From a virus, in the IMG/VR virus record IMGVR_UViG_3300025138_000103, positions 1 to 39,459 of that record: a DNA stretch of 39,459 nt; one strand, 5' to 3'. The notes under the pieces were generated by a model. It had not been told where the DNA came from. It did no database searches and was given only the letters and a program-made list of their open reading frames with translations. A program made the translations under genes and the position numbers. Numbering within the stretch: position 1 is the first letter of the stretch; each line of letters starts with the position of its first letter. Shown in pieces: positions 2,015-15,856 of this stretch.

Positions 2015-4045
2015 TTATCTCCTTTCTAAAAATATTCCCATTGGTTGAGAATCCATTATAGTATATAGAGTGTTTAAACTGCTATTAACTAAATTTCCAT
2101 ATGCTTCGCCATTGTCCCTCAACATAGCATCTGCATATATCTGTGTAGGCTGATACCAATTTGTTTGATCTGGTATATCAGCTTGTGAGTAGTCACTAAA
2201 ATTAGGCACATAATTCATATAAGCAATAAGGTTAGACTGCCCTTGAGAATCATATTCTCCTGATTGTTCTTGCTGTGCTTGTGACGTTTCTTGTTGTGCT
2301 CTTATATTACTAGCAACTACTTCTTCTGCTATCTGATCTGCTTCAGAAGAAGTCATTACAGACGATGTAACGCTTTGTATTTGGTTGTCCATAGTAGTTA
2401 CTTGTACTTCAGCCATGACAGCAGAAGGTGTATTATCCATAGAAGGCATGGGTATAACTTCTATAGACTGTAGTACTGTATTAGTCTGTACTTGTGCTGA
2501 AGATATTTGAGCAGATATACTAGGTGAGTTAGATACAGAAACACCTCCACCTCTTGATGATACAACAGCACTAGAAGAGCTACCGCCTGAGTTCACATTT
2601 TGTGAGGTTTGTCCTGAAGATATGCTAGAGTTCACTATATTTGAAGTTGTTCTGTTTGCGGTATTAATATTGTTTCTTACTAGCTGTCTTCTTCTTTCAG
2701 ACCTTTCTGGTCTATCTTCCTCTACTTCTTCTGGGCTTATCTCATCAATAGATTCATCTGAGATTTCTTCTTCCTCTTCTAACATCTCTTCTTCATACTG
2801 TTCTTCTATTTCTTCTCTCTGTTCTTCTTGTTCTTCAAAGTCTTCAAACTGCTCATCCCACTGTTCTCTGTCCATTTCATCTTCAAAATCAAAATGCTCA
2901 TCCATGTGTTGAGCAAGCTCTACAAACTCTTCTTCGGTTAATCGTATCTCAGGTAAAATATCTATAGGCGGTAGATCTAATAAATTTTCTGGTCCGCCTA
3001 TATCTATTTCTATAAGACTTAATGTTACTTCTTCACTACCAAGTAAAGCAAAATCCCCATCAAGGTGTATATCAAAATTATTATTAAAGTCTTCATATTC
3101 TATAGTATCCCTGTTATCAAATTCAAAATAACTATCGCTAATAGTCCCATCATAGTCAGTACCGCCACCATCCCTGCTGTCAGCACCTGTAAAAAAAACA
3201 GATGTTCCTGTATAAGTTTCTTCATCATTGAAACCATAAAATTCCTCCTCATCGTCATAGCCTAACAACATAGCGTCAGATAAACCTGAGCCACGTAGAT
3301 ACTCTTCATCGTCAAAACCATTTCCAAATTCATTGTCTAAGTCGTATACCTGGCACAATTCACTAAAGTCAGAATCAATTAAACACTCTGATGATAAGTT
3401 AGTAAAAGACTCATCAATAGCTGTACTAACAGACCAGTCGTCAGTTAATACGTAGCTTGTAGAATTGGTGTCTTCATAACGCAAGTGAGTTGTTGCTTCA
3501 TTATTTCCTTGTAAGCCTATAGTTATGTTATGGTTTGATACATTTATTTTATCATATCTAAACTCTATGACATTTGTAGTTTCGTACAAGATAGCTTCAA
3601 AAGAACTTAAATTATTATTTCTATATTCATTAACATTATACCATCCTGCAACCCAATACCTAGAGCCTGCATCACCATATGTACCTACGTAGGGAGAACC
3701 GTTGTTATTATTCTTGTCAATAAAATCAGACCATAGAGCGAATACGGTAAAATCAAAACCAGACGCAGGTATTACTTCAGATAGATAGTTTCTTTGATTG
3801 TATACATTAAAGTTAGAATTAAAAGTTACGAAACCATTCATAGCTACTCTAGCTTGACTATATGTATTACCGTAGTAATTAAAATCAAAGCCTAGATTTT
3901 GCATAGGAGAAACAGCATCATCATTAAGATTAAGAGCTGTGCCCGTGTTTTGGATATTTAATATAGGATCAGTACCTGTTGTGAATACAGGCGTGTTGGC
4001 TTGTGCCGAAATGCTAAAGAGTAATAAGAATATTAATCTAAGCAT
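2015..4045 (-). CDS. large secreted protein, nidogen-like N-terminal region with acidic and Ser/Asn/Gln-rich tail
   Basis: The 676-aa product opens with a classic signal peptide, MLRLIFLLLFSISAQA. Residues about 20-210 form a beta-rich region (GFDFNYYGNTYSQARVAMNG, then WSDFIDKNNNN) that resembles the nidogen-like/PEP-type extracellular module built on a 'yGn.y..v.i..NG.itF' pattern. A strongly acidic Glu-rich helix-forming stretch lies near 365-455 (for example EEEMLEEEEEISDESIDE), then a low-complexity Ser/Asn/Gln/Val-rich tail. It overlaps the preceding gene by 13 nt and has no clear ribosome site of its own, so it is probably coupled. A Sec-secreted protein at the end of a structural operon may be a surface-conversion or adhesion factor, or a virion part matured in the periplasm. 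Function unknown. Confidence 0.6.
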   Translation of the reverse strand: MLRLIFLLLFSISAQANTPVFTTGTDPILNIQNTGTALNLNDDAVSPMQNLGFDFNYYGNTYSQARVAMNGFVTFNSNFNVYNQRNYLSEVIPASGFDFTVFALWSDFIDKNNNNGSPYVGTYGDAGSRYWVAGWYNVNEYRNNNLSSFEAILYETTNVIEFRYDKINVSNHNITIGLQGNNEATTHLRYEDTNSTSYVLTDDWSVSTAIDESFTNLSSECLIDSDFSELCQVYDLDNEFGNGFDDEEYLRGSGLSDAMLLGYDDEEEFYGFNDEETYTGTSVFFTGADSRDGGGTDYDGTISDSYFEFDNRDTIEYEDFNNNFDIHLDGDFALLGSEEVTLSLIEIDIGGPENLLDLPPIDILPEIRLTEEEFVELAQHMDEHFDFEDEMDREQWDEQFEDFEEQEEQREEIEEQYEEEMLEEEEEISDESIDEISPEEVEEDRPERSERRRQLVRNNINTANRTTSNIVNSSISSGQTSQNVNSGGSSSSAVVSSRGGGVSVSNSPSISAQISSAQVQTNTVLQSIEVIPMPSMDNTPSAVMAEVQVTTMDNQIQSVTSSVMTSSEADQIAEEVVASNIRAQQETSQAQQEQSGEYDSQGQSNLIAYMNYVPNFSDYSQADIPDQTNWYQPTQIYADAMLRDNGEAYGNLVNSSLNTLYTIMDSQPMGIFLERR

Positions 4046-5010
4046 ATTTTATGTGTAGGATACTTCTTACAGAAATCTTTTTTCTTATACGCTTTAAACT
4101 CATGGGAAGAGATTTCTTTCTTTATATCATCCCAATCAGGTCTATCTTCTGGATTTTCTAACCAGGCTTTCTGTGCTTCTGCACCAATCTTGCCTTTATA
4201 CGGACAGGGAGTCCCTGCCATATTCATCGCCACGTGCACTCTTTTATCGGCACATAACATAGCAACTGCAGCTACCTTCATTCCCATATCATACAAACCC
4301 TTTGATAATTTCAGTCTTTCGCAGTTATCATCTCGTACACTTCTACCTGTAGATATACCAAAAAACTGAGTTTGGACCGCTGAACTAGCTCCTGTGGTGC
4401 ATAGGTCTTGACTATATGACATTATAGATGGGGCTATAGCGGATGGAGGAGCGGTTTTGATTCTTTGTGTTACCTTCTGTGTAGAGTCATTACGAGATAC
4501 ACTAGTGCTATTATTATTATTTGTATTTAAATTTGTGTTCTGATTTGTATTTTGATTGACACTTTCTGTAGATACAGAAGACGTACTGTTAGAAGTATTA
4601 GTATTTAAATTTGTGTTTTGGTTATTGTTACTAGATGTAGAATTATTGATATTTGTATTTGTTCCTACAGAAGTGACATTGCTTGTATTAGTAACGTCTT
4701 GAGTTTGTGTTATATTAGATGTTACATTAGATGTGCTAGTATTTACATTAGTGTTGTTATTTGTGGCATTGGTAGTCTGATTTATTGTAGTATTGTTTAC
4801 GTTGTTATTGTTATTAGTTGCAACAGATGTACTACTAATTGTGTTATTGTTGGTGTTATTATTGGTATTTGTATTTGTGCTAGTTACAGTACTAGTTGTA
4901 GTATTAGTTATGTTTGAGTCTTCACCAAATAGATTATTAGGTACAACAAGAGTTGCAACTAGTGCTACAGATACTATTCCTACTGCTATATCCTTTATAA
5001 AGTTTTTCAC
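4033..5010 (-). CDS. secreted Asn/Thr/Ser low-complexity protein with a Cys-containing C-terminal domain
   Basis: The gene starts with GTG after GGAGG and encodes 325 aa. An N-terminal hydrophobic segment (DIAVGIVSVALVATLVV) looks like a signal peptide or anchor. Residues about 30-185 are almost only N, T, S, V and Q. The C-terminal 130 residues are different: they start SYSQDLCTTGASSAVQTQFF, hold cysteines in DDNCERL, MLCADKR, GTPCPYKG and FCKKYPTHKICLD, and look folded and probably disulphide-bonded. I have a memory of this cysteine domain recurring in marine phages, but no functional name. It overlaps the next gene by 13 nt. It may be a surface-displayed or virion-associated protein whose N-terminal half is a flexible tether. 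Confidence 0.6.
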   Translation of the reverse strand: MKNFIKDIAVGIVSVALVATLVVPNNLFGEDSNITNTTTSTVTSTNTNTNNNTNNNTISSTSVATNNNNNVNNTTINQTTNATNNNTNVNTSTSNVTSNITQTQDVTNTSNVTSVGTNTNINNSTSSNNNQNTNLNTNTSNSTSSVSTESVNQNTNQNTNLNTNNNNSTSVSRNDSTQKVTQRIKTAPPSAIAPSIMSYSQDLCTTGASSAVQTQFFGISTGRSVRDDNCERLKLSKGLYDMGMKVAAVAMLCADKRVHVAMNMAGTPCPYKGKIGAEAQKAWLENPEDRPDWDDIKKEISSHEFKAYKKKDFCKKYPTHKICLD

Positions 5011-5041: not shown

Positions 5042-8000
5042 TTAATTGTCTTCCCTTAATATGTCTATCATTTGACTTTTTAAATCGTCTTCTCCTGTTA
5101 TGCCGTAGTCTTTTTTAATTTTACTTAATGCTCCTGTTTCTTGAGCTAAGATCCTTTCTCTGGAAGTCATGTTTCTAAGATCGTGTACAGCATCGTACAA
5201 AGGAAAATTATTAAACTTAGAAGTAAATCTTTTTCTCATGTGTCCTCGTAAACCTGTTCTTATATTAGATATAGCTCTTTCCATATAGACTCCTTTTTCA
5301 GCGTCTGATTTATTTACGTAGTGAGAAGAGTTTAGTTCGTTCTGATACACATCCATTAATTTAAAAAAACCTTCTTTATATGCGTAGGTTAATGCAGGAT
5401 TCTCATCCCATATTATTGCATCTTGATAAGAAAATCCTAATCTATCCATTTCAGATAAAAACACATGTTTCTTTTGGCTTGTGGCAGAAACACCAGAAAC
5501 TTGTTGTGCAAGAGGTGCTAATTTTGTTCTATACGAACTAGTAAAAGGTGAAGCAGAAGGTATTTCTTTTTTTCCTCCGATTAAATCATAAAAAACTGAA
5601 GGTATTTTATTAAGGCTTTTACTTGTTGCAGGATTAAATTTTGTTTCTCTTACTATTTCTTCTGCTCCATCCCATACACTTAGTACGTCACTCATTACAG
5701 AAAAAGGTGTAGCAAACCCTGAAAAATAATCTCCTGCTATTCCTTTAAGACCTGAGTTTAATCTAACAAAATTCTTTACTAGACTTAAATTATCTCCCTC
5801 ATCTTTTAAAGTAGTCTTTGGTACAAAAACATCATCTAAAAAAGAAGAAAGAGTTCCTACTCTAGCCTGTGTTCCTATGCCTGCTTTAAGCATTTCTCTT
5901 TGTAAAGTTTTAAAATTTTTATAGCTTCTTGGTCCTTTGTTCCATAAACCGTTGCTTTTTAAATCTTCTATATCTCCACCGTTATCTACTATTTCCCAAA
6001 ATTCTTCTTCTGTGTGTGGGCGTACTCCTTCTAAATTTCTTATAAAAAAATCTGATGCAAACATATAGGGACTTACATTAGGTCCTACTAATCCTATATT
6101 TACTATTCTTCCTGCACTATCTTTAACTTCATCCCATCTTTCTCCCGCATACTCACTTTTTCTAAATGCCCAAGCTGCCCCAAACATAGTTGTTCCTGCT
6201 ATACCTTTACCAATAGCAGAAAAATCGTATGTCTTGTCTGCCTGTCCTCTAGCAGCTCTAAACACTTTTGACCCCACTGCATCAAATAATCCAATAGGAC
6301 TGTACTCTAATTGAAACTTTAGAGCATTATATAAAAATCTTGGAAACGGTATTAAAGCAGTAGGACCTGGGTTTGACATAATTTTTACAAAATGTTTCAT
6401 AACAGTATCATAACCATGCATAAGATTAGTTTTAGGAGCACTTCTACTTCCTATATTATCTGCTCTACTTCTAGCAGTTCTTCCTTGAAACGTAAATTCC
6501 ATAGCATCATCAATAGCTCTAGTTATAACAGTATCTCCTTGACCTGCTGCCCCATAAAATTTTTGATTATTCCATATTTCAGCATTCATTTCCATGCCGC
6601 CTCTAGCTACAAAATCTGACATGCTTTTAAATTTTGCATCTTTACCTATAATGCCCAATCTTCCTAATTGTCTTTCTATAGAACTCATAAAAGACACTCT
6701 TCTAAATAGATGTTCTTGAGTTCTATTCATTATATTTACCATATCAGTAAATTTTTGTGCACCTTGTAGTAAAGTAGTTCCTACTCCCTTACCTTCTTTT
6801 TCTGCTAACTTATAACTTACCTCATTATATGCTTGATAAAAAGCCCTGCTTGCATACCCATCTGCATCTATTTTAGTCATTAATTCGTCTGTTAATCTTC
6901 CTGCTTCTGCATTATTAAAAAGCCATTTAAAAGCAGTATCCCCGTCTCCTAAATTGACGTTATTAATAGCACCCATTTTCTTGCCTTGTTTTTTATTAAT
7001 TTCCATAAGGCTATATGCTAATAAATTATCACTATATCTAGCTAGTGCATCAGCAGGCATTCTAATACCTACAGATATAGCATTTCTAATTGCTGTTTTT
7101 GGGTTAGATACCATAAGACCTCTTCTCACATTATCAATAGCTCGTATAGAAGATCCTAAACTTTTACTAGAATTTGCTACAGATGCTAAATATGCTTCTT
7201 TTTCTAGCTCCATTAAACTTCCACCAAACTGTAGATTTTTTAATTTACCTTCAAATAATCCTTTTCCTGACTTATCTCCTATAGAGTCATAAACTTCGTC
7301 TACACTTTTATTTATTTCTTTTGTTAATCTTCCCCATATACCTAAAGTTTTACCTGCTTCTGATATACTAGACCACCACATATGTCTTATATCATCTAGA
7401 CCTACTCCCATTTCATCCATTTGTTTAGTAAATTGATCCATAGGAATGTCGCCAGTTTCTAGTGCGTTAAATATGTTGTGAGTAACCCTATTACCTTTTC
7501 CTTTAGGCTGTAGTATTTGAGCTAATCCAGGATTTTTATGTATTAAATCTTCTACTACGTATGCTATATTTTCACTTACTCCTGTCCTTACTTGAGCATG
7601 TGTTAAAGGAGTAACACCAAATTTCTGTAATAGTTCTTGTCCTCTTTCTCCTACTTCTTTAAATGCTTCGTCTGCATCTTTTCCTAATTCTTTTTTTAAA
7701 TTACTTAAAGTTTTAAAACGCTCTTTATTATTTTTAACATCTTTTTTAATTTTATTTACAGCGTTTTCTTTTTTTAATTTTCTCCACTCTATTATGTTAG
7801 CTATTCTATTAGCTTTTCCTGCTTGCCACTTTGCCATAGGATACGTTAAAGCACCTCCTACTGCTCCTGATAAAGCAGTTACTCCTAAAGTTTGTCCTAA
7901 GCTATACTCTGTTCTTCCTTGATAAGGTAACTGTAAATTAGCTCCTGTAAGCTCTACATTTTGTCTTCCTACATCTGTAAGAGCAGCTATACCTGCTTCA

Positions 8001-8563
8001 ACTCCCCCTGCTTTAACAGCTTGACTTTTTGCGTATTCTTTTCCATACGCTTTTAACATTTGTTCTCGGACAGATTTGTTAAAATTTTTACCTACTACTT
8101 TCTTACCGTGAGATTTTGCATATTCTTTAACTGCCTGTTGTGTAACTCTACTAGCAGCCATTTGTGCACCTTTACCTGTACCTCCTACAAATAAAGAAAG
8201 GTACAAAGAAGGAGATTTTAAAAATCCTTCAACATAGTCTCCTATAACATTAAAATTATTTTCTGAGCTACTAAACCCTCCTTCATACTGATCAAATAAT
8301 GCAGTAGATCTTTTATAATTAGTTAATCTGTCTAGTTGATTTGTGCCATTAATGTCATTTGTATCTCTAACGTAGCTTAGATCTCCTAATACAGTAATCT
8401 CATTACCTATATTAAATTTTCTATTATGCTCTAACCAAAGTTTAGTAGCCTCTTCTGTATCTTGAATATTTTTTCCATACATATTTTTTACAAAAGGTTG
8501 TATTACTTCCCTTTGAGTTTCTTCTTTTAATAGATACTCGTAATTAAGTTTTTTAGTTGACAT
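5042..8563 (-). CDS. very large internal/ejection-type virion protein
   Basis: I chose the ATG at 8563 (MSTKKLNYEYLLKEE, 1173 aa) because GGAAA lies upstream at a suitable distance and it avoids a 47-nt overlap; an in-frame ATG at 8623 would add 20 residues. The protein is mainly helical, rich in Lys, Ala and Ser, with Gly/Ala-rich weakly hydrophobic stretches such as LGVTALSGAVGGALTYPMAKW (split by a Gly pair) near 230-250 and IAGTTMFGAAWAFR near 790-805. No enzyme motif was found. Its size and its place after the fibre and hendecad proteins match the large core or ejection proteins (T7 gp15/gp16-like role) of short-tailed phages. The family is known to me only as a recurrent marine phage internal protein, so the role is inferred from context. 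Confidence 0.65.
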   Translation of the reverse strand: MSTKKLNYEYLLKEETQREVIQPFVKNMYGKNIQDTEEATKLWLEHNRKFNIGNEITVLGDLSYVRDTNDINGTNQLDRLTNYKRSTALFDQYEGGFSSSENNFNVIGDYVEGFLKSPSLYLSLFVGGTGKGAQMAASRVTQQAVKEYAKSHGKKVVGKNFNKSVREQMLKAYGKEYAKSQAVKAGGVEAGIAALTDVGRQNVELTGANLQLPYQGRTEYSLGQTLGVTALSGAVGGALTYPMAKWQAGKANRIANIIEWRKLKKENAVNKIKKDVKNNKERFKTLSNLKKELGKDADEAFKEVGERGQELLQKFGVTPLTHAQVRTGVSENIAYVVEDLIHKNPGLAQILQPKGKGNRVTHNIFNALETGDIPMDQFTKQMDEMGVGLDDIRHMWWSSISEAGKTLGIWGRLTKEINKSVDEVYDSIGDKSGKGLFEGKLKNLQFGGSLMELEKEAYLASVANSSKSLGSSIRAIDNVRRGLMVSNPKTAIRNAISVGIRMPADALARYSDNLLAYSLMEINKKQGKKMGAINNVNLGDGDTAFKWLFNNAEAGRLTDELMTKIDADGYASRAFYQAYNEVSYKLAEKEGKGVGTTLLQGAQKFTDMVNIMNRTQEHLFRRVSFMSSIERQLGRLGIIGKDAKFKSMSDFVARGGMEMNAEIWNNQKFYGAAGQGDTVITRAIDDAMEFTFQGRTARSRADNIGSRSAPKTNLMHGYDTVMKHFVKIMSNPGPTALIPFPRFLYNALKFQLEYSPIGLFDAVGSKVFRAARGQADKTYDFSAIGKGIAGTTMFGAAWAFRKSEYAGERWDEVKDSAGRIVNIGLVGPNVSPYMFASDFFIRNLEGVRPHTEEEFWEIVDNGGDIEDLKSNGLWNKGPRSYKNFKTLQREMLKAGIGTQARVGTLSSFLDDVFVPKTTLKDEGDNLSLVKNFVRLNSGLKGIAGDYFSGFATPFSVMSDVLSVWDGAEEIVRETKFNPATSKSLNKIPSVFYDLIGGKKEIPSASPFTSSYRTKLAPLAQQVSGVSATSQKKHVFLSEMDRLGFSYQDAIIWDENPALTYAYKEGFFKLMDVYQNELNSSHYVNKSDAEKGVYMERAISNIRTGLRGHMRKRFTSKFNNFPLYDAVHDLRNMTSRERILAQETGALSKIKKDYGITGEDDLKSQMIDILREDN

Positions 8564-8576
8564 TATTGATTGTTTC

Positions 8577-11312
8577 CTAGTCTCTTTTATATGGTGTTCC
8601 ATCAGCATCATAGGTGTAGACACTTCCTAGTCCTGCAGGAACATTAAATACGTAGTTAGAATTTACGCCCATTGCATTTTTGTACTTTTCAAAACCTTTT
8701 GTATCTTTTCCTCCAAAGAGCCAGTCGTCTCCTTCTACTAAACGTCTTGATAAGTTTTGAAAAGCTGATTCTCCTATATTTCTTGGATTGTCTGCAACCG
8801 TTCCTTCAATAGATGCTGCTTCTATAGCTGCAGGTAAATCTTCTTTAAAGTTTTCTATAGCAGCAACGTTCAAACTATTTAAAGATTTTTTTTCAGAGTC
8901 GTCTCCAAACATTTCTTGCACTGTTAGTTTTTTTCTTTCTGTATCTGCATAGTTATACATTTTATCATATTCTTCTTCTCGTTCTTCCTTAGACATAGAA
9001 CGATCTCCTGCTAAGTCTTTTTCCATCATATTAGAGTCTTGTACACTAAAATCATAAGAATCAAGTCCGTAGCTGTTACTTCTACCTCCTAATCCTCCAA
9101 ATCCTCCAAAGCGAGATCCTCCGCCTCTTGTTCCTATTACTACTGTTTCATCTATTGTTCCTCCACTGTTTAAACGAGGTGTCATAATACCTCCTAAATA
9201 CATAGGTTTTGCAGTAGATATTTCTGGGCTCACTCCTCCTGATGCTATCTCATTAACATTATCTTCTTCAGCATTATATAAAGAAGCGTATTCAGGAACG
9301 CTATTAATATACTCAATAGCACTTTGTACTTCAGGTAACGCACTTACATAGTCACCAAAACCACCTTTTTCTGTAGCCATCATTGATTTTAATTCTGCTA
9401 TATTTTTTTCTGGGTTTAATGGTCTTCCTGATGGTTTAAAACCTGCTACTAAAGATTTAATTTTTCTAGCTAGTTTTTTCTGATCAAGAGCTCCTCCTTC
9501 AGAAGATATTTCTCTGATCCATTGAGGAAATCTTCCTCCATCTTTACCTAACTTCCCACCTGAAGCTATATAATCATCTTGTATTCTTTGATTTTTTTGT
9601 GCAAGTAACTCTTCAGCATTTTCTGAAGTAGGAATTATCCAAACTATGTCATTTATTACTTCGTTTACGTTTGGATCTTTGCCCCCTTCATTAGTTCCGT
9701 TTCCTGTACCTGTACTTGTATTAGTCTCTACTCCATATTTATCAACATCACTCTGTCCTATTTCTAACCCTGTATCAGTATCAGTAACTATGCCATCAGT
9801 ACCTACAACAACGCTGTCTATAGTATCACTACCTCCTTGAGCTTTTAATTCTGTAGTACCTTCAAATCTTTTTCTTTCTGCTATAGTTCTTTTTATAATA
9901 GCCTCACCATTAGAAGTAGAAATACCATTTTCATTATTTATAAAATCTTTTGATATAGCCTGTACTGCACTAAAACTTAAATTATTTACATTATTTACAT
10001 ATTCTCCTGTGTTTGCATTTTGTGTTATAATGCCTTTAAAAGGTTTATATACTCTATATCCTGCTGTTTGACCGTTTTCATTTAAAATAAGTTCAGTAGA
10101 TTCTAAGTTATACAATTCTTCAAGATCTTTATTTTTTAATAAGCTGTTCCATCTATTTTGTATTGCTTTTAATTTTTGCGGGTTTCCTATATCACTATTG
10201 AGTAACTCTTTAAGTCCTTTATCTCCAGTAGCAACAGATCCAGTTGCTGCTATTTTATTAAAATTTATATACTCTTGATCTAGTGTTTTAACTTCTTCAA
10301 GCATAGGTCTATAAGCAGCTATAATTTCATCACTAAGAGTTGCGGGAACTTGATCATTAATACGTTGAAATACTGAACCTTGAACTCCTGCTACATCATA
10401 GGCTAATGATGCAAAATTTTTAAAAGAATTAGTTCCTACGTCTTCTATTGTAACAGAATAATCTCCTGAATCTGGGCTTAGTACTGCCGATCCTACTGTA
10501 GTATTAATTAAAGTACCAAAAGAATTTCTAATGTTTGACCTAAATTGAGAATAGTTAATCCCAAACGATTCATACACAGGGTTAATACTCATCATAAATT
10601 TTCCGTCTTTCATTCGTTGATCTTTAGTAGCAACAGATATATAACCTTTTTCTAAAGCATTATCATACGTAGCTGTATCTATTCCTACATATTCAGGAGG
10701 AGTATTGTTAGTTAACTCAAATACTTTGTTAGCAGTTAAAGGTGTTCCGTCTACATCTACTAATCCTTCGTATTCAAGACTTGAAGCTGCTCCATAATAT
10801 TTAGCTTTTTGGGATCTATCAGGATTAATAACATTTTGAAACCCTTCTGTAAAAGTTGTAGGTTTTCCAGTCCCTGTATATTCATCACCTTTTTGGTAGC
10901 CAGTATTTAAAGCTGTTATAGATTGATCTAAATTTATCGTAGGATCTATAAAAAAGTTTCCCTTTTTTCTCCAATTTCCTATAACTGTACTTGGGCTATC
11001 TGTAATAAGGTCAGGATAATTTATTCCTTTTACATTTGTTGCTTTACCGACTTGATCGCTTGAAATAAAACTCATAGCTATTTTAAATGCTTCTTGTTTT
11101 GAAATATCTTGTTCACTCATAATTACTTTAACTAATTGATCAATAGCTAAATTATGTTGATTTTTAAGTTTAGCAGCTTCTCCTGCAGTTTGTAAGTTAC
11201 CTTTAACCGTAGAGTCTACTATTTCTTTTTTTTGTTGTAGATCAGCATTTTGCCCTTCTAAAATCTCAGAAGATATTTCCATGCCTTCATTAAATACGTC
11301 ACTCCACCCCAT
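8577..11312 (-). CDS. large virion/internal protein with TonB-box-like motifs
   Basis: The product has 911 aa and a strong ribosome site (AGGAGAATAAT before ATG). The N-terminus is helical (SSEILEGQNADLQQKKEIVD), the middle mixed, and from about 490 a flexible Gly/Thr/Asp-rich linker follows. Two TonB-box-like motifs occur: DSVVVGTD at 499-506 and ETVVIGTR at 722-729, the second followed by a Gly/Ser/Phe-rich loop (GGGSRFGGFGGLGGRS). The C-terminal 150 residues are charged and helical. It sits between two other putative internal proteins and likely belongs to the ejected core or tail tip. No catalytic motif is visible. The recurrent motif also appears in the transglycosylase gene and the 183-aa protein. 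Confidence 0.6.
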   Translation of the reverse strand: MGWSDVFNEGMEISSEILEGQNADLQQKKEIVDSTVKGNLQTAGEAAKLKNQHNLAIDQLVKVIMSEQDISKQEAFKIAMSFISSDQVGKATNVKGINYPDLITDSPSTVIGNWRKKGNFFIDPTINLDQSITALNTGYQKGDEYTGTGKPTTFTEGFQNVINPDRSQKAKYYGAASSLEYEGLVDVDGTPLTANKVFELTNNTPPEYVGIDTATYDNALEKGYISVATKDQRMKDGKFMMSINPVYESFGINYSQFRSNIRNSFGTLINTTVGSAVLSPDSGDYSVTIEDVGTNSFKNFASLAYDVAGVQGSVFQRINDQVPATLSDEIIAAYRPMLEEVKTLDQEYINFNKIAATGSVATGDKGLKELLNSDIGNPQKLKAIQNRWNSLLKNKDLEELYNLESTELILNENGQTAGYRVYKPFKGIITQNANTGEYVNNVNNLSFSAVQAISKDFINNENGISTSNGEAIIKRTIAERKRFEGTTELKAQGGSDTIDSVVVGTDGIVTDTDTGLEIGQSDVDKYGVETNTSTGTGNGTNEGGKDPNVNEVINDIVWIIPTSENAEELLAQKNQRIQDDYIASGGKLGKDGGRFPQWIREISSEGGALDQKKLARKIKSLVAGFKPSGRPLNPEKNIAELKSMMATEKGGFGDYVSALPEVQSAIEYINSVPEYASLYNAEEDNVNEIASGGVSPEISTAKPMYLGGIMTPRLNSGGTIDETVVIGTRGGGSRFGGFGGLGGRSNSYGLDSYDFSVQDSNMMEKDLAGDRSMSKEEREEEYDKMYNYADTERKKLTVQEMFGDDSEKKSLNSLNVAAIENFKEDLPAAIEAASIEGTVADNPRNIGESAFQNLSRRLVEGDDWLFGGKDTKGFEKYKNAMGVNSNYVFNVPAGLGSVYTYDADGTPYKRD

Positions 11313-11313
11313 A

Positions 11314-11865
11314 TTATTCTCCTACCTTACTCATTAAACCGCCTTTTTTATCTAACATTTTTTGTATTTCTTTTATTTCTGTTTCAGGCTGTACAGAACT
11401 TTCTGTAGAAACATTTTCTTTTACATCTATTTCTTTATCTGTATCTATTTCTTTATTCATTTTTTTATAGTCTATATAAACATCTTCATTACCAAAATTA
11501 ATATCAATTTCTGCTTTTGCTCCTATTACAACTATATCAGTTATAATAGCAGGTTTTATGAGTTCAGCTATGTCAGGAGTCCATAGACCTTTAGCATACC
11601 CCATCGTAAGTACAGATTGAGCAATAAGAGTAGGAGACATTTCCATTTCTAACAAATCTATTATTTCTAATATAGATTCTTCTTTATACATATTTTTTTC
11701 TAGCCATTCATATGCTTCTTCAGGGTCAGTATATATAGGAGGTTTATCCCAAGGAAATTTTTTAGGAGGCTGTGTTAGAGAATATCCAGGAGGAGTACGA
11801 CTAAAAAAATCTATTTCTTTTCCGTTAGGAGTATAATGTACATCTTTATCTATTTCTTTTTCCAT
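11314..11865 (-). CDS. acidic hypothetical virion-region protein
   Basis: This 183-aa protein has a good ribosome site (AAAGGAAAAT). It is rich in Asp, Glu, Ile and Lys. Residues about 40-60 (DKPPIYTDPEEAYEWLEKN) and 60-100 look helical; 110-117 read DIVVIGAK, similar to the TonB-box-like motifs of neighbouring proteins. Its stop lies just before the start of the 911-aa gene, so the two are co-translated. It could be a chaperone or a small core component; I do not recognise a family. Confidence 0.55.
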   Translation of the reverse strand: MEKEIDKDVHYTPNGKEIDFFSRTPPGYSLTQPPKKFPWDKPPIYTDPEEAYEWLEKNMYKEESILEIIDLLEMEMSPTLIAQSVLTMGYAKGLWTPDIAELIKPAIITDIVVIGAKAEIDINFGNEDVYIDYKKMNKEIDTDKEIDVKENVSTESSVQPETEIKEIQKMLDKKGGLMSKVGE

Positions 11866-11876
11866 TTAATTTTCCT

Positions 11877-12179
11877 TTAGCTCAATGCTCTAAAAAGTTT
11901 TTTACTGTAGTTTGATTGTTTTATAGTATCTTGATCTTCTAAATCTTTAAAAGCTGCAGCTATTTTGCTATCAAAGCCATAAAATGTAGGTTTAAAAACA
12001 CGAGCACTTCTTGTGTTTATAGATTTAGGTTTTCTAAGACCTTTGCCTATAAAAAACTCACTAGAAATTCCTGGTTTACCTAAATCAGTTTCTTTATAAC
12101 CAATTTGAGCACCACTTTTACTTTTACTTCCGAGAACTGCCCCTGCTACTGTTCCTATTATTGCTGTTAGTAATCCCAT
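11877..12179 (-). CDS. small protein with Gly-rich hydrophobic N-terminus
   Basis: The 100-aa product begins MGLLTAIIGTVAGAVLGSK, a short Gly/Ala-rich hydrophobic helix, followed by a basic, Ser-rich region and a helical C-terminus. It starts in a TAATG overlap with the stop of the S74 protein, with AGGAGAAAA as ribosome site. Position within the internal-protein block suggests a small virion or ejection component that might insert in membrane, but no family is recognised. Confidence 0.55.
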   Translation of the reverse strand: MGLLTAIIGTVAGAVLGSKSKSGAQIGYKETDLGKPGISSEFFIGKGLRKPKSINTRSARVFKPTFYGFDSKIAAAFKDLEDQDTIKQSNYSKKLFRALS

Positions 12180-15100
12180 TATTTTTCTCCTCTTGTTCTA
12201 TGAAGAACCTCGTCAAACATAATAGCTAAATAATTATCTATTGTAGAAACTAATTCAGGATAAACTTTTTCTACTTCTTGAGCTATGAATCCTTCTGTAA
12301 TATTAGGATCAACTTTAGATAAAGGTAAAGCTTTTTCTACCCAGTCCCATGTATACCATCCTAAGCCGTTATTAAATGTTTTTTGTTTTACAATATTAGT
12401 CTTTAACCTAATGTCTGATGCCATATAACTAGAAAATATATTACTTACAAATCTTAATATATTAGATGTTTTATTAGCACTTGTTTCTTTTGATGCAAAA
12501 TACTTTTGTAAATCTGCATCCATAGTAGCAATCATTAAATTAAAATCTCTATCTTTTTGATTTTCGCCTTTATTAAAAGCATAAGCAGTAGTGTCTCTAT
12601 ATTCTTGCCATATTTCTGATAAAGCTTGATTAGATAACTCTAAACGATTTAATACATTTTGTTGATTTGCGGCATTAAGACCTGCTGTATTTAAAGTGTT
12701 TAACTCTCTTCTATAATTTACATTTGCTTGTTCTATTTCAAGAGCATTATTAGCATTAAATTTTTCTCTTTGATCTTGTAATGTAACGTTAAATTGATCC
12801 ATTGCATTAGCTTGTCCTGAATTAAATTGTTCCATTGCATTCATTTGAGTAGAATTAAACTTTCTAATGTCTGCAGTTAAATTTTCATAGAATTGTTCTA
12901 CTTGGTTTTCACTAGTTGCATTAAATTGTAGTGCTGCATTTTGAGCTGCTTGATCAGATAATAAACCTTGTTGTAGCTGTTGAGAATACAGTATAGTAGC
13001 TTGTTGATCATTTGTTAGATTAGCTATATTCATAGATAAAAAGTTTTTAGCATTTTCTACTTGGGCTGCTTGTCTATTGTTAAATTCTACATTATCCATT
13101 TGAGAATAGTTTGCAGCATTTTGTAATACACGAGCCTGATCATAATCTAAATTATTTAAGTTTAATGATTCTAATAATTTAGAATTAGAAAACACCCGTG
13201 TCTGTTCTGCAGTAAAATCTAGGTTAGCATTTTCAGCATATCTAGATGCTTTAATTATATTAACCTGTTGTATATTGTCAAGTTCTTTTCCCTCTAAAGC
13301 ACCTTGAACTTGTAGTTCTGCAAGAATAGCCTTTTCTTTAGCAGATAATTCTGCCATATCTACTGTTAAATTATTTGCTTCGTTTGTAATACGAGCTTGT
13401 TGCTCATTAGTTAAATTTATGTTCTCTAGTTCTGCATAACGAGCTGCATTTACTACTTGCTCTTGTTGACCACGAGATAAATCTTTTTCTTGTAGTGCAT
13501 TTGACATTTGAGAATTTGCTAATACTGCTGCTTGGTAGTTACTTAATGAAGCACTTAGTAGTTGATAACGTTGTACAGAATTTGCTAACTCTGTTTGTTG
13601 TGCGTTAGATAAATCTTGTAATCTAAAGTTTCTAGCTGCTGCAGCATTATCAAGTGCAAATTTATTTTTATTAGCTAAGTTAGTTAAATTCATATTGGCG
13701 TATACTTGTGCGTCTGCTTGTGCAATAGGTAGTGCAGCTTCTTGTGCAGCTTGTACTATAGTAGCTGCTGCTAAAGAACTATTTCCTAGTCCTCTTTCTG
13801 CCATAACTTGATTAGCAACTCGTATAGATCCTGCTGCCCAATCAGGCATACCGTCATCAAAATCAGTCATTAATAAACTTAATTGACCTCTTACAGTATC
13901 TAGTGCATTTACATCACCCTCTACTGCTGCAGGAAAATATTCTCCCACTATATTAGAGGCTTTTTCTACAGCGGGTGCTGCAGCTAGTTCCGTAGCGTTT
14001 AAACTAGCAGTATCTTTACCTAGTGCTCTTTCTAATATTTGACCACCTTGAGTAGCTGCTACTCTTTCTAGCTCTGTTACTTCATCTTGTGTTCTATTAG
14101 CCCCTTCTTCATCAGATACAAAATCACTCGTAGCTCTTTCTGCTATTCCTAATACTTCTGAGCCAAATGCTGCTATAGTTGCAGCAGTAGGTAATTCTGC
14201 TCCTGCAGGTACTACACCAATTACTTCACCGTTTGCACCTAAAATTTGTACAGGTTGATCAGACATCATGCCTCTACGAGAAGGTAACTCACTTGCATCT
14301 ACAGTATACGTACCTTGATTACGTGCTACAATATCATCTGCAGCGTCATTTAGTACTAAAGATTTTAATGAAGGGTCGCCAAATTGTGCTATTACTTCTT
14401 TATCTACAGCATTATTCTCACCATACAATCTTTTTATTTCATCATACATTTGGTCTGCAGTATATGTATTAGCATTTCTTTCTAATGTATTTCTTGCAGT
14501 ATCTGTATCGCCAGTTGTTAAAGTGCCTGATATACTTGGGTCTAATCTAGATTCTTCTGGGCGAATTAATTCTTCATTAGGGTTAAATTTTTGTTCTGTA
14601 AATTTAAACTCAGTGCCTTCAGGAAGACCAGGTTTTTTTATTTGCTCTATTGAAAATTTAATAGGATCAAAAGGTTCACCTGTTTCAGGGTCTATAGGTA
14701 AAACAGGAGTAGGTCCAGGAGTAGGATCACCACCATCGTCATCTCCAGGTGCAGGTATAGCTCCTAATATAGTATAGCTATCTGGGCTAAATGCATTCAT
14801 AGGCATTCCATTTCCTTTAGTCATTAAATATCCATTGTTATCATATACCATAGTCATAGCAGGTATATTTCCTATACCACTTGTTCCCCCACTAGAGCCA
14901 GGATTGTAGTATACGTATATAGGAGTTTTCCCCCATGTAGGAGGCATTTTTCCGTCATCAGGCATTACTTGTGTAACAGCTACATCATTAATATAACCTC
15001 TTTGTGCACCCATCTGAGTTAATTGTTCAATAGTCATAGGACTAGGTTCTTGCCCTGCAATAGGTACATAACGAGTTGCTCCCATTGAACTCCAATTATT

Positions 15101-15856
15101 AGAATAGTCTCCATCCCATCCTTCATTAGGTTTTGTAGGATCGTAGAAACCAGGTGTTTCATCTTTTTTGGGTATAGGACCTTGTGCTTCTATAGGTCTA
15201 GTTCTATTATAACTAGGTGAATTAGGGTTTATATCTCGTTGTGTAATAATATATTTACCAGTTGTAGGATCAGGCTCTGATCTTCCTATCTCTACAAAAT
15301 TAGGTTCTTTGTTTACTGTTTCATCTGGTTTTTCTTCTGTATCTTCCCCAGTCCCACCAGGAACAGTTGAATCTTCCCCAGTCCCACCAGGCACAGTTGA
15401 ATCTTCTCCAGTCCCACCAGGCACAGTTGTATCAGTCCCTGTACCACCAGGCACAGTTGTATCAGTTCCTGTACCACCAGGCACAGTTACATCTTCTCCA
15501 GTCCCACCAGGCACAGTAGTAGTAGTTTGTGCTACTGTATCTCCACCAAATCCACCAGGAGGTATAGTAATATTTCCAAAAGGTGTATTAATAGTTTGTC
15601 CGCCTGATGTTGTATTAGTTGCCTGTGTAGTAGCAGCAGGAGTTGTGTCAACAGCAGGAGTTGTGTCAACAGCAGGAGTTACAGTATTGTTATTTTGAGC
15701 TGATGCAACTGCTGCGTCAATTCTTGCTTGTATATCAGGAGTAATATTAAAACCTGAAAAACCTTTAGGTATAGCCTGACCATTAGCAGCCATTTGTTTT
15801 TCTAAGGCTTTTTTTCTTTTAGCTAATTCTTTTTGTGTTAATGGTTTTTTTGGCAT
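12179..15856 (-). CDS. long hendecad-repeat virion protein with C-terminal S74 intramolecular chaperone
   Basis: The 1225-aa protein has four parts. Residues 1-230 are low complexity, with six 10-residue VPGGTGEDT-type repeats. Residues about 230-740 are mixed, with Pro/Gly-rich linkers. Residues 749-968 are ten consecutive 22-residue units with a Leu/Phe first position and QQ or QA at position 5-6, and 977-1053 are seven consecutive 11-residue units starting QF/KF, so both blocks fit a hendecad alpha-helical fold. The C-terminus (about 1145-1210) reads SDIRLKTNIV, then GLGWYTWDWV and GFIAQEVEKVYPELV. This is the Peptidase_S74 intramolecular chaperone, which trimerises fibres and spikes and then may cleave itself off. 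The serine of SDIRLKTN is the expected cleavage residue. It is likely a trimeric fibre, spike or tail-needle component. Confidence 0.75.
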   Translation of the reverse strand: MPKKPLTQKELAKRKKALEKQMAANGQAIPKGFSGFNITPDIQARIDAAVASAQNNNTVTPAVDTTPAVDTTPAATTQATNTTSGGQTINTPFGNITIPPGGFGGDTVAQTTTTVPGGTGEDVTVPGGTGTDTTVPGGTGTDTTVPGGTGEDSTVPGGTGEDSTVPGGTGEDTEEKPDETVNKEPNFVEIGRSEPDPTTGKYIITQRDINPNSPSYNRTRPIEAQGPIPKKDETPGFYDPTKPNEGWDGDYSNNWSSMGATRYVPIAGQEPSPMTIEQLTQMGAQRGYINDVAVTQVMPDDGKMPPTWGKTPIYVYYNPGSSGGTSGIGNIPAMTMVYDNNGYLMTKGNGMPMNAFSPDSYTILGAIPAPGDDDGGDPTPGPTPVLPIDPETGEPFDPIKFSIEQIKKPGLPEGTEFKFTEQKFNPNEELIRPEESRLDPSISGTLTTGDTDTARNTLERNANTYTADQMYDEIKRLYGENNAVDKEVIAQFGDPSLKSLVLNDAADDIVARNQGTYTVDASELPSRRGMMSDQPVQILGANGEVIGVVPAGAELPTAATIAAFGSEVLGIAERATSDFVSDEEGANRTQDEVTELERVAATQGGQILERALGKDTASLNATELAAAPAVEKASNIVGEYFPAAVEGDVNALDTVRGQLSLLMTDFDDGMPDWAAGSIRVANQVMAERGLGNSSLAAATIVQAAQEAALPIAQADAQVYANMNLTNLANKNKFALDNAAAARNFRLQDLSNAQQTELANSVQRYQLLSASLSNYQAAVLANSQMSNALQEKDLSRGQQEQVVNAARYAELENINLTNEQQARITNEANNLTVDMAELSAKEKAILAELQVQGALEGKELDNIQQVNIIKASRYAENANLDFTAEQTRVFSNSKLLESLNLNNLDYDQARVLQNAANYSQMDNVEFNNRQAAQVENAKNFLSMNIANLTNDQQATILYSQQLQQGLLSDQAAQNAALQFNATSENQVEQFYENLTADIRKFNSTQMNAMEQFNSGQANAMDQFNVTLQDQREKFNANNALEIEQANVNYRRELNTLNTAGLNAANQQNVLNRLELSNQALSEIWQEYRDTTAYAFNKGENQKDRDFNLMIATMDADLQKYFASKETSANKTSNILRFVSNIFSSYMASDIRLKTNIVKQKTFNNGLGWYTWDWVEKALPLSKVDPNITEGFIAQEVEKVYPELVSTIDNYLAIMFDEVLHRTRGEK
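12698..13612 (-). repeat. coding repeats: ten 22-residue then seven 11-residue units
   Basis: Within the S74 protein, unit starts such as LSNYQAAVLAN, LSRGQQEQVVN, LTNEQQARITN and LDNIQQVNIIK recur every 66 nt without any insertion or deletion from 13612 to 12953. After an 8-residue joint, QFNATSENQVE, KFNSTQMNAME, QFNSGQANAMD and QFNVTLQDQRE recur every 33 nt. The repeats are diverged at DNA level, so they are old and selected at protein level. Confidence 0.85.
15341..15520 (-). repeat. six 30-bp tandem coding repeats (VPGGTGEDST type)
   Basis: Six head-to-tail 30-bp units in the S74 protein gene encode a 10-residue unit, PGGTGEDSTV with variants TDTTV and EDVTV. The units are nearly identical at DNA level, so copy number is probably unstable. 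A second short tandem of 18 bp (encoding TPAVDT) lies at about 15635-15680. They look like flexible linker. Confidence 0.85.

Follow-up and report, generated by a model that had tools for sequence, protein, structure and literature searches.

A viral repeat protein whose predicted helical array changes length in whole units

The window (the whole 39,459-nt stretch of viral DNA analysed here) encodes a 1225-aa protein (12179..15856, minus strand) that carries an array of 22-residue repeats followed by a run of 11-residue repeats and has homologues in 27 phage records and more than 550 viral-contig loci. We confirmed that the array is genuine and regular and that its length is quantised in evolution. 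The whole explanation that we prefer, at a little under an even chance, is a virion solenoid protein whose adjustable length would let it act as a spacer in a DNA conduit or as its wall; the evidence suggests an adjustable spacer in a DNA-delivery machine rather than a single long rod. The phage type that carries the protein is very common in the sea, and an array that changes in whole helical units, mostly in fives, offers natural length variants, from 1 to 26 units, that could be used to learn whether podophages set their conduits to a measured length.

Layout of the repeat protein

The N-terminal region of the protein (residues 1-560; 14177..15856, minus strand, as for all features below) is rich in Gly (11.8%), Pro (10.5%) and Thr (12.7%) and is not conserved, with nearly all relatives aligning only from residue ~560-650 onward in homology searches. 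Within it lie six tandem copies of VPGGTGxDxT, each ~10 residues long. Eleven 22-residue units, each predicted to form a helix and a loop, occupy residues 727-968 (12953..13678). The unit starting at residue 727 is degenerate in the window protein and canonical in relatives, and AlphaFold places a helix at its position 3. The other ten run without a gap over residues 749-968 (13612-12953), exactly where the first-pass annotation had placed them, and start, as it had noted, with L (eight units) or F (two). Position 5, described there as mostly Q, is Q in nine of the ten and E in the unit at residue 837. The 22-residue array is N/Q/A-rich, contains no proline (P 0%) and is predicted to be alpha-helical. 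An 8-residue joint, QAAQNAAL (residues 969-976; 12929..12952), which belongs to a conserved anchor, is followed by the seven expected 11-residue repeats (residues 977-1053; 12928-12698), in which F recurs six times at a spacing of 11 and long helices are predicted.

Periodicity analysis gave significant lags for both repeat types. For residues 749-968, self-similarity z-scores were 6.1, 7.5, 8.5 and 4.8 at lags of 22, 44, 66 and 88, and for residues 977-1053 they were 6.5, 6.8 and 5.3 at lags of 11, 22 and 33. All of these exceed the highest z reached at any lag in 2000 shuffles of the same stretches (4.6 and 4.4, respectively).

The protein ends in a predicted helical tail (residues 1054-1146; 12419..12697), modelled at low confidence, and a Peptidase_S74 domain (residues 1147-1203; 12248..12418). 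The presence of the latter, already proposed, is supported by a match to PF13884 (E=5e-9; 36.7 bits against a cut-off of 22) and by SDIRLK at residue 1147, an instance of the SDxxLK motif near the C-terminus. S74 domains usually act on trimers, and a trimeric needle had been proposed on that basis. S74 also occurs in phages CRP-3 and CRP-235, and the 57 relatives scanned for domains had S74 in two cases and LysM in one, other domains giving single matches. A relative 86% identical to the window protein (L001) has a short hydrophobic Gly-rich tail and no S74. With a C-terminus as modular as this, trimerisation through S74 does not transfer to the family, and the trimeric needle applies at most to the window protein and a few CRP phages. 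The single LysM, a peptidoglycan-binding domain, sits in the N-terminal region of the CRP-235 relative (L032, 1390-3921), ahead of the repeat core, and S74 follows at the C-terminus. We also noted a C-terminal extension (AREVYG...APKW), without S74, that is common to HMO-2011 and some contigs (L021, 8263-10383; L077; L090).

Length variation in steps of 11, 22 and 110 residues

The 27 phage records found with tblastn include HMO-2011, eleven roseobacter phages, four pelagiphages, three rhizobial phages, phiM6, and Vibrio (CHOED), Aeromonas and Pseudoalteromonas phages. Among viral contigs, the single protein as the query gave 20 loci, and 557 relatives were confirmed with an alignment, 80 of which were kept. 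Sixteen matches in bacterial and archaeal genomes were all on contigs from MAGs or single cells, and we read these as viral. Pfam contains no model specific to the family, and PHROG matches to it are almost absent. Its members in HMO-2011 (phage1322_25) and in the CRP, HTVC, CHOED and phiM6 phages are annotated as hypothetical; most homologues lack S74, and that of HMO-2011 has five units compared with ten in the window.

Spacing was measured between three conserved anchors, searched as small profiles (around ALPIA; QAAxNAAxQFNA; QxNxxWRR). In 111 of 112 proteins, the distance between the first and second anchors, which spans the 22-residue array, departed from the window value by an exact multiple of 11; the departures ran from -198 to +330 residues. 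Between the second and third anchors, which span the 11-residue repeats, the difference was a multiple of 11 in all 117 proteins. Homologues were predicted to vary in steps of 11 or 22 residues, and these spacings uphold the 11-residue quantum. The two parts differed in their variability: the 11-residue part had the same length in 95 of 117 proteins, while the 22-residue array varied, with 1 to 26 gapless units per relative. Duplication of whole units alone predicts 22-residue steps, and 11-residue steps were seen as well. The sole spacing that was not a multiple of 11 (+328, in L067, 3-3983) may reflect a sequencing error or a real two-residue deletion.

Changes in unit number were frequent, at least 28 on a quick tree from the flanking sequence and a 183-aa partner protein, the tree being rough and possibly affected by recombination. 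When counts were scaled to the window's ten units, 85 of the 112 loci fell on a multiple of five (5 units in 53 loci, 10 in 21, 15 in 7, 20 in 1 and 25 in 3). Another 15 had 4.5 units, and the remainder had 1, 3, 6, 8, 10.5 or 13 units or were the exceptional L067. In long relatives, with up to 26 gapless 22-residue units in one protein, a 110-residue super-repeat was evident from the similarity between units five and ten apart (z of 7.7 and 3.7 for L064 and 6.4 and 4.2 for L068) or five apart (4.4 for L082). The corresponding five-unit peak in the window protein was not significant (p=0.12). This super-period is new here, an addition to what the first-pass annotation had observed. The counts in fives together with the peaks at distances of five and ten units indicate that the array has grown largely by blocks of 110 residues.

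Predicted structure of the 22- and 11-residue repeats

We examined two single-chain AlphaFold models, built from 44 and 57 sequences. Each 22-residue unit was modelled as one helix, mostly of 13-17 residues (~15), and a loop, with one helix split in two. The helices start at model residues 40, 62, 84, 106, 128, 150, 172, 194, 216, 238 and 260, always at unit position 3 and thus exactly 22 apart. The pLDDT was 79-94 across the first seven units and dropped to 50-70 in the 11-residue part (pTM 0.66), and the longer model had identical helix breaks. Two features of the units are independent of the models. Residues of the helix N-cap type (S, T, D or N) fill position 2 in 99% of cells, and position 20 is G or N in 39%, as expected of helix ends. 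Furthermore, large hydrophobic residues in the 22-residue units follow mainly a period of 2.75 (power 15.0), with power of only 3.7 (p=0.03) at 3.67. Judged by the breaks, N-caps and 2.75 period, each unit resembles a solenoid coil made of one helix. The repeats are thus helical in the models, as had been supposed, and the 22-residue array is probably a helical solenoid, not a hendecad rod. Units have been gained or lost in odd numbers, which would fit one orientation per unit rather than hairpin pairs running up and down.

With Foldseek, the best PDB match to either model was at E 0.31, to designed helical proteins, and the only viral models below E 0.001 were sequence relatives. A VIA comparison reached middling Z values (up to 8.5), which fell almost entirely within model residues 178-365; it therefore hardly covered the best-predicted units, and we do not propose a new fold from it. 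Against PDB sequences, neither the protein itself nor family profiles (repeat, 183-aa and 1193-aa) matched anything above chance level.

The first-pass annotation had proposed a continuous right-handed hendecad coiled coil, trimerised through S74, that would form a needle, fibre or conduit of ~45 nm. For the 11-residue repeats, the hendecad part of this proposal is acceptable: they look like a hendecad helix, with a strong hydrophobic period of 3.67 (power 10.1, p<0.0005). The 11-residue quantum throughout the relatives, the usual action of S74 on trimers and the 4-4-3 hendecad spacing of positions 1, 5, 9, 12, 16 and 20 in the 22-residue units would also suit a rod. However, position 5, which would lie in the core, is Q in 94% of the units, position 18 on the opposite face is hydrophobic, nearly all relatives lack S74, and capping residues and predicted breaks in all units argue against a continuous helix through the 22-residue array. 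Stacked helices take up ~1 nm each, and at that spacing the array would extend ~10 nm, not 33 nm, so a ~45-nm rod is probably wrong. Long coiled coils can come out folded back in error when AlphaFold models a single chain, and loops may straighten in an oligomer; we keep the rod as an unlikely reading, at about one chance in five.

Gene neighbourhood and a putative role in DNA delivery

Along the minus strand, the genes for the terminase, portal, capsid, a tail protein, an amidase/internal-protein-like product and fibres precede the repeat gene, which is followed by genes for 100-aa, 183-aa, 911-aa and 1193-aa proteins. The 100-aa protein (11877..12179) has a hydrophobic Gly-rich N-terminus, and a homologue was not found. 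The 183-aa protein (11314..11865) has a hydrophobic segment and is a conserved partner: its family lies downstream of the repeat protein, in the same order and on the same strand, in 108 of the 108 loci that have both, and the two are found in practically the same set of phage records. At the position of T7 gp15 stands the 911-aa protein (8577..11312), which is fast-evolving; one homologue was found by sequence, and an interval of 306-822 codons is present at its position in all loci tested, between the 183-aa family and the start of the 1193-aa family. The latter protein (5042..8623), at the position of T7 gp16, has homologues in 77 ORFs and no match in PHROG and PDB searches.

The gp14-, gp15- and gp16-like ejection proteins of podophages are 181-240, 431-982 and 609-1337 aa long, in that order, and their homologues are often undetectable by sequence (PMC8954989). 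The sizes of the 183-, 911- and 1193-aa proteins and their order from small to large fall within these ranges. The T7 gp14-15-16 and P22 gp7-20-16 cassettes (PMC8954989) are thus alike in the order and sizes of the three proteins and in their place at the end of the structural module, but a sequence relation is undetectable, profile comparisons with T7 gp14, gp15 and gp16 gave no match, and the repeat protein would add a fourth protein to the set. For T7/P22-type ejection proteins we found no description of a 22-residue array, and the literature search found no published proteomics of the HMO-2011-type group. Based on the gene order, the protein sizes and the LysM fusion in CRP-235, we favour an ejection or conduit role by analogy, and gene order makes the earlier suggestion of a part in DNA delivery likely. 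The nearest analogies are the phiX174 H tube and tape measure proteins with 11-residue repeats. The H protein forms an N/Q-rich helical tube lining the DNA path, with hendecads first (PMC7354561), and shares the hendecad-type helices and N/Q richness. The H conduit differs in that one kinked helix comprises its three hendecads and eleven heptads, without 22-residue units; it belongs to a small ssDNA phage, and the PDB sequence search found no relation.

The gene of the repeat protein heads a conserved cassette in which three further proteins stand at the position of podophage ejection proteins, and under the preferred reading its product would be part of the virion of a podophage of the HMO-2011 type. 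The predicted helix-loop modules may stack into an elongated alpha-solenoid that evolves through gain or loss of whole units, mostly five-unit (110-residue) blocks. The 11-residue repeats would give long helices of the hendecad type, which probably associate with one another. The protein might leave the particle with the DNA or line the DNA path, and act in the conduit across the cell envelope as a spacer or wall whose length can be adjusted. The particular form in which this is an undescribed type of alpha-solenoid, with a single helix-loop per coil, five units as the superhelical period and an N/Q-rich trans-envelope conduit wall in abundant ocean phages, we regard as improbable.

Three other roles are doubtful to different degrees. 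It could be an internal protein that acts as a tape measure or scaffold, its length setting an assembly distance (for example of a core or tail channel) and the F of each 11-residue repeat serving as an anchor. This would parallel the tape measure proteins of some phages, in which tandem 11-residue repeats, variable in number and bearing F/W at set positions, have evolved as units were duplicated and lost (PMC3271669). Six F/W in a row at a spacing of 11 were present in 79 of 117 proteins, yet the published pattern of seven in a row was found in none; the window protein has six. Those repeats belong to long-tailed phages, whereas this genome encodes short-tail tube proteins and its 22-residue units vary while the 11-residue part is near-constant, and we judge this role quite unlikely. 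Equally so is an external tail fibre or needle shaft, in which the repeats would space an attachment end from a receptor-binding or S74-matured end. The adjoining tail-fibre genes, the variable N-terminal region and the S74 of the window and some CRP phages would fit, but the array is alpha-helical and N/Q/A-rich, searches gave no fibre-family match, the 183-aa partner is always present and the LysM fusion suggests the periplasm. Far less probable still are amphipathic helices that coat a membrane during DNA entry. Apolipoproteins have similar 22- and 11-residue units and a similar pattern of helix breaks, with which the predicted unit breaks agree; the proline punctuation is absent, however, and the helical hydrophobic period is weak in the 22-residue units.

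Returning to the spacer or conduit wall that we prefer, repeat number did not correlate with the length of the neighbouring 911-aa-type protein (Spearman -0.21, p=0.07). Two further proteins are encoded beyond the cassette on the minus strand. One, of 676 aa (2015-4045), has a signal-like N-terminus, an Asp/Glu-rich middle and a Ser/Gln-rich tail, and has no relatives among the loci compared. The other, of 325 aa (4033-5010), contains long Asn/Thr low-complexity stretches (NTNTNNNT...), and its sole match is phrog_20531, a PHROG of unknown function.
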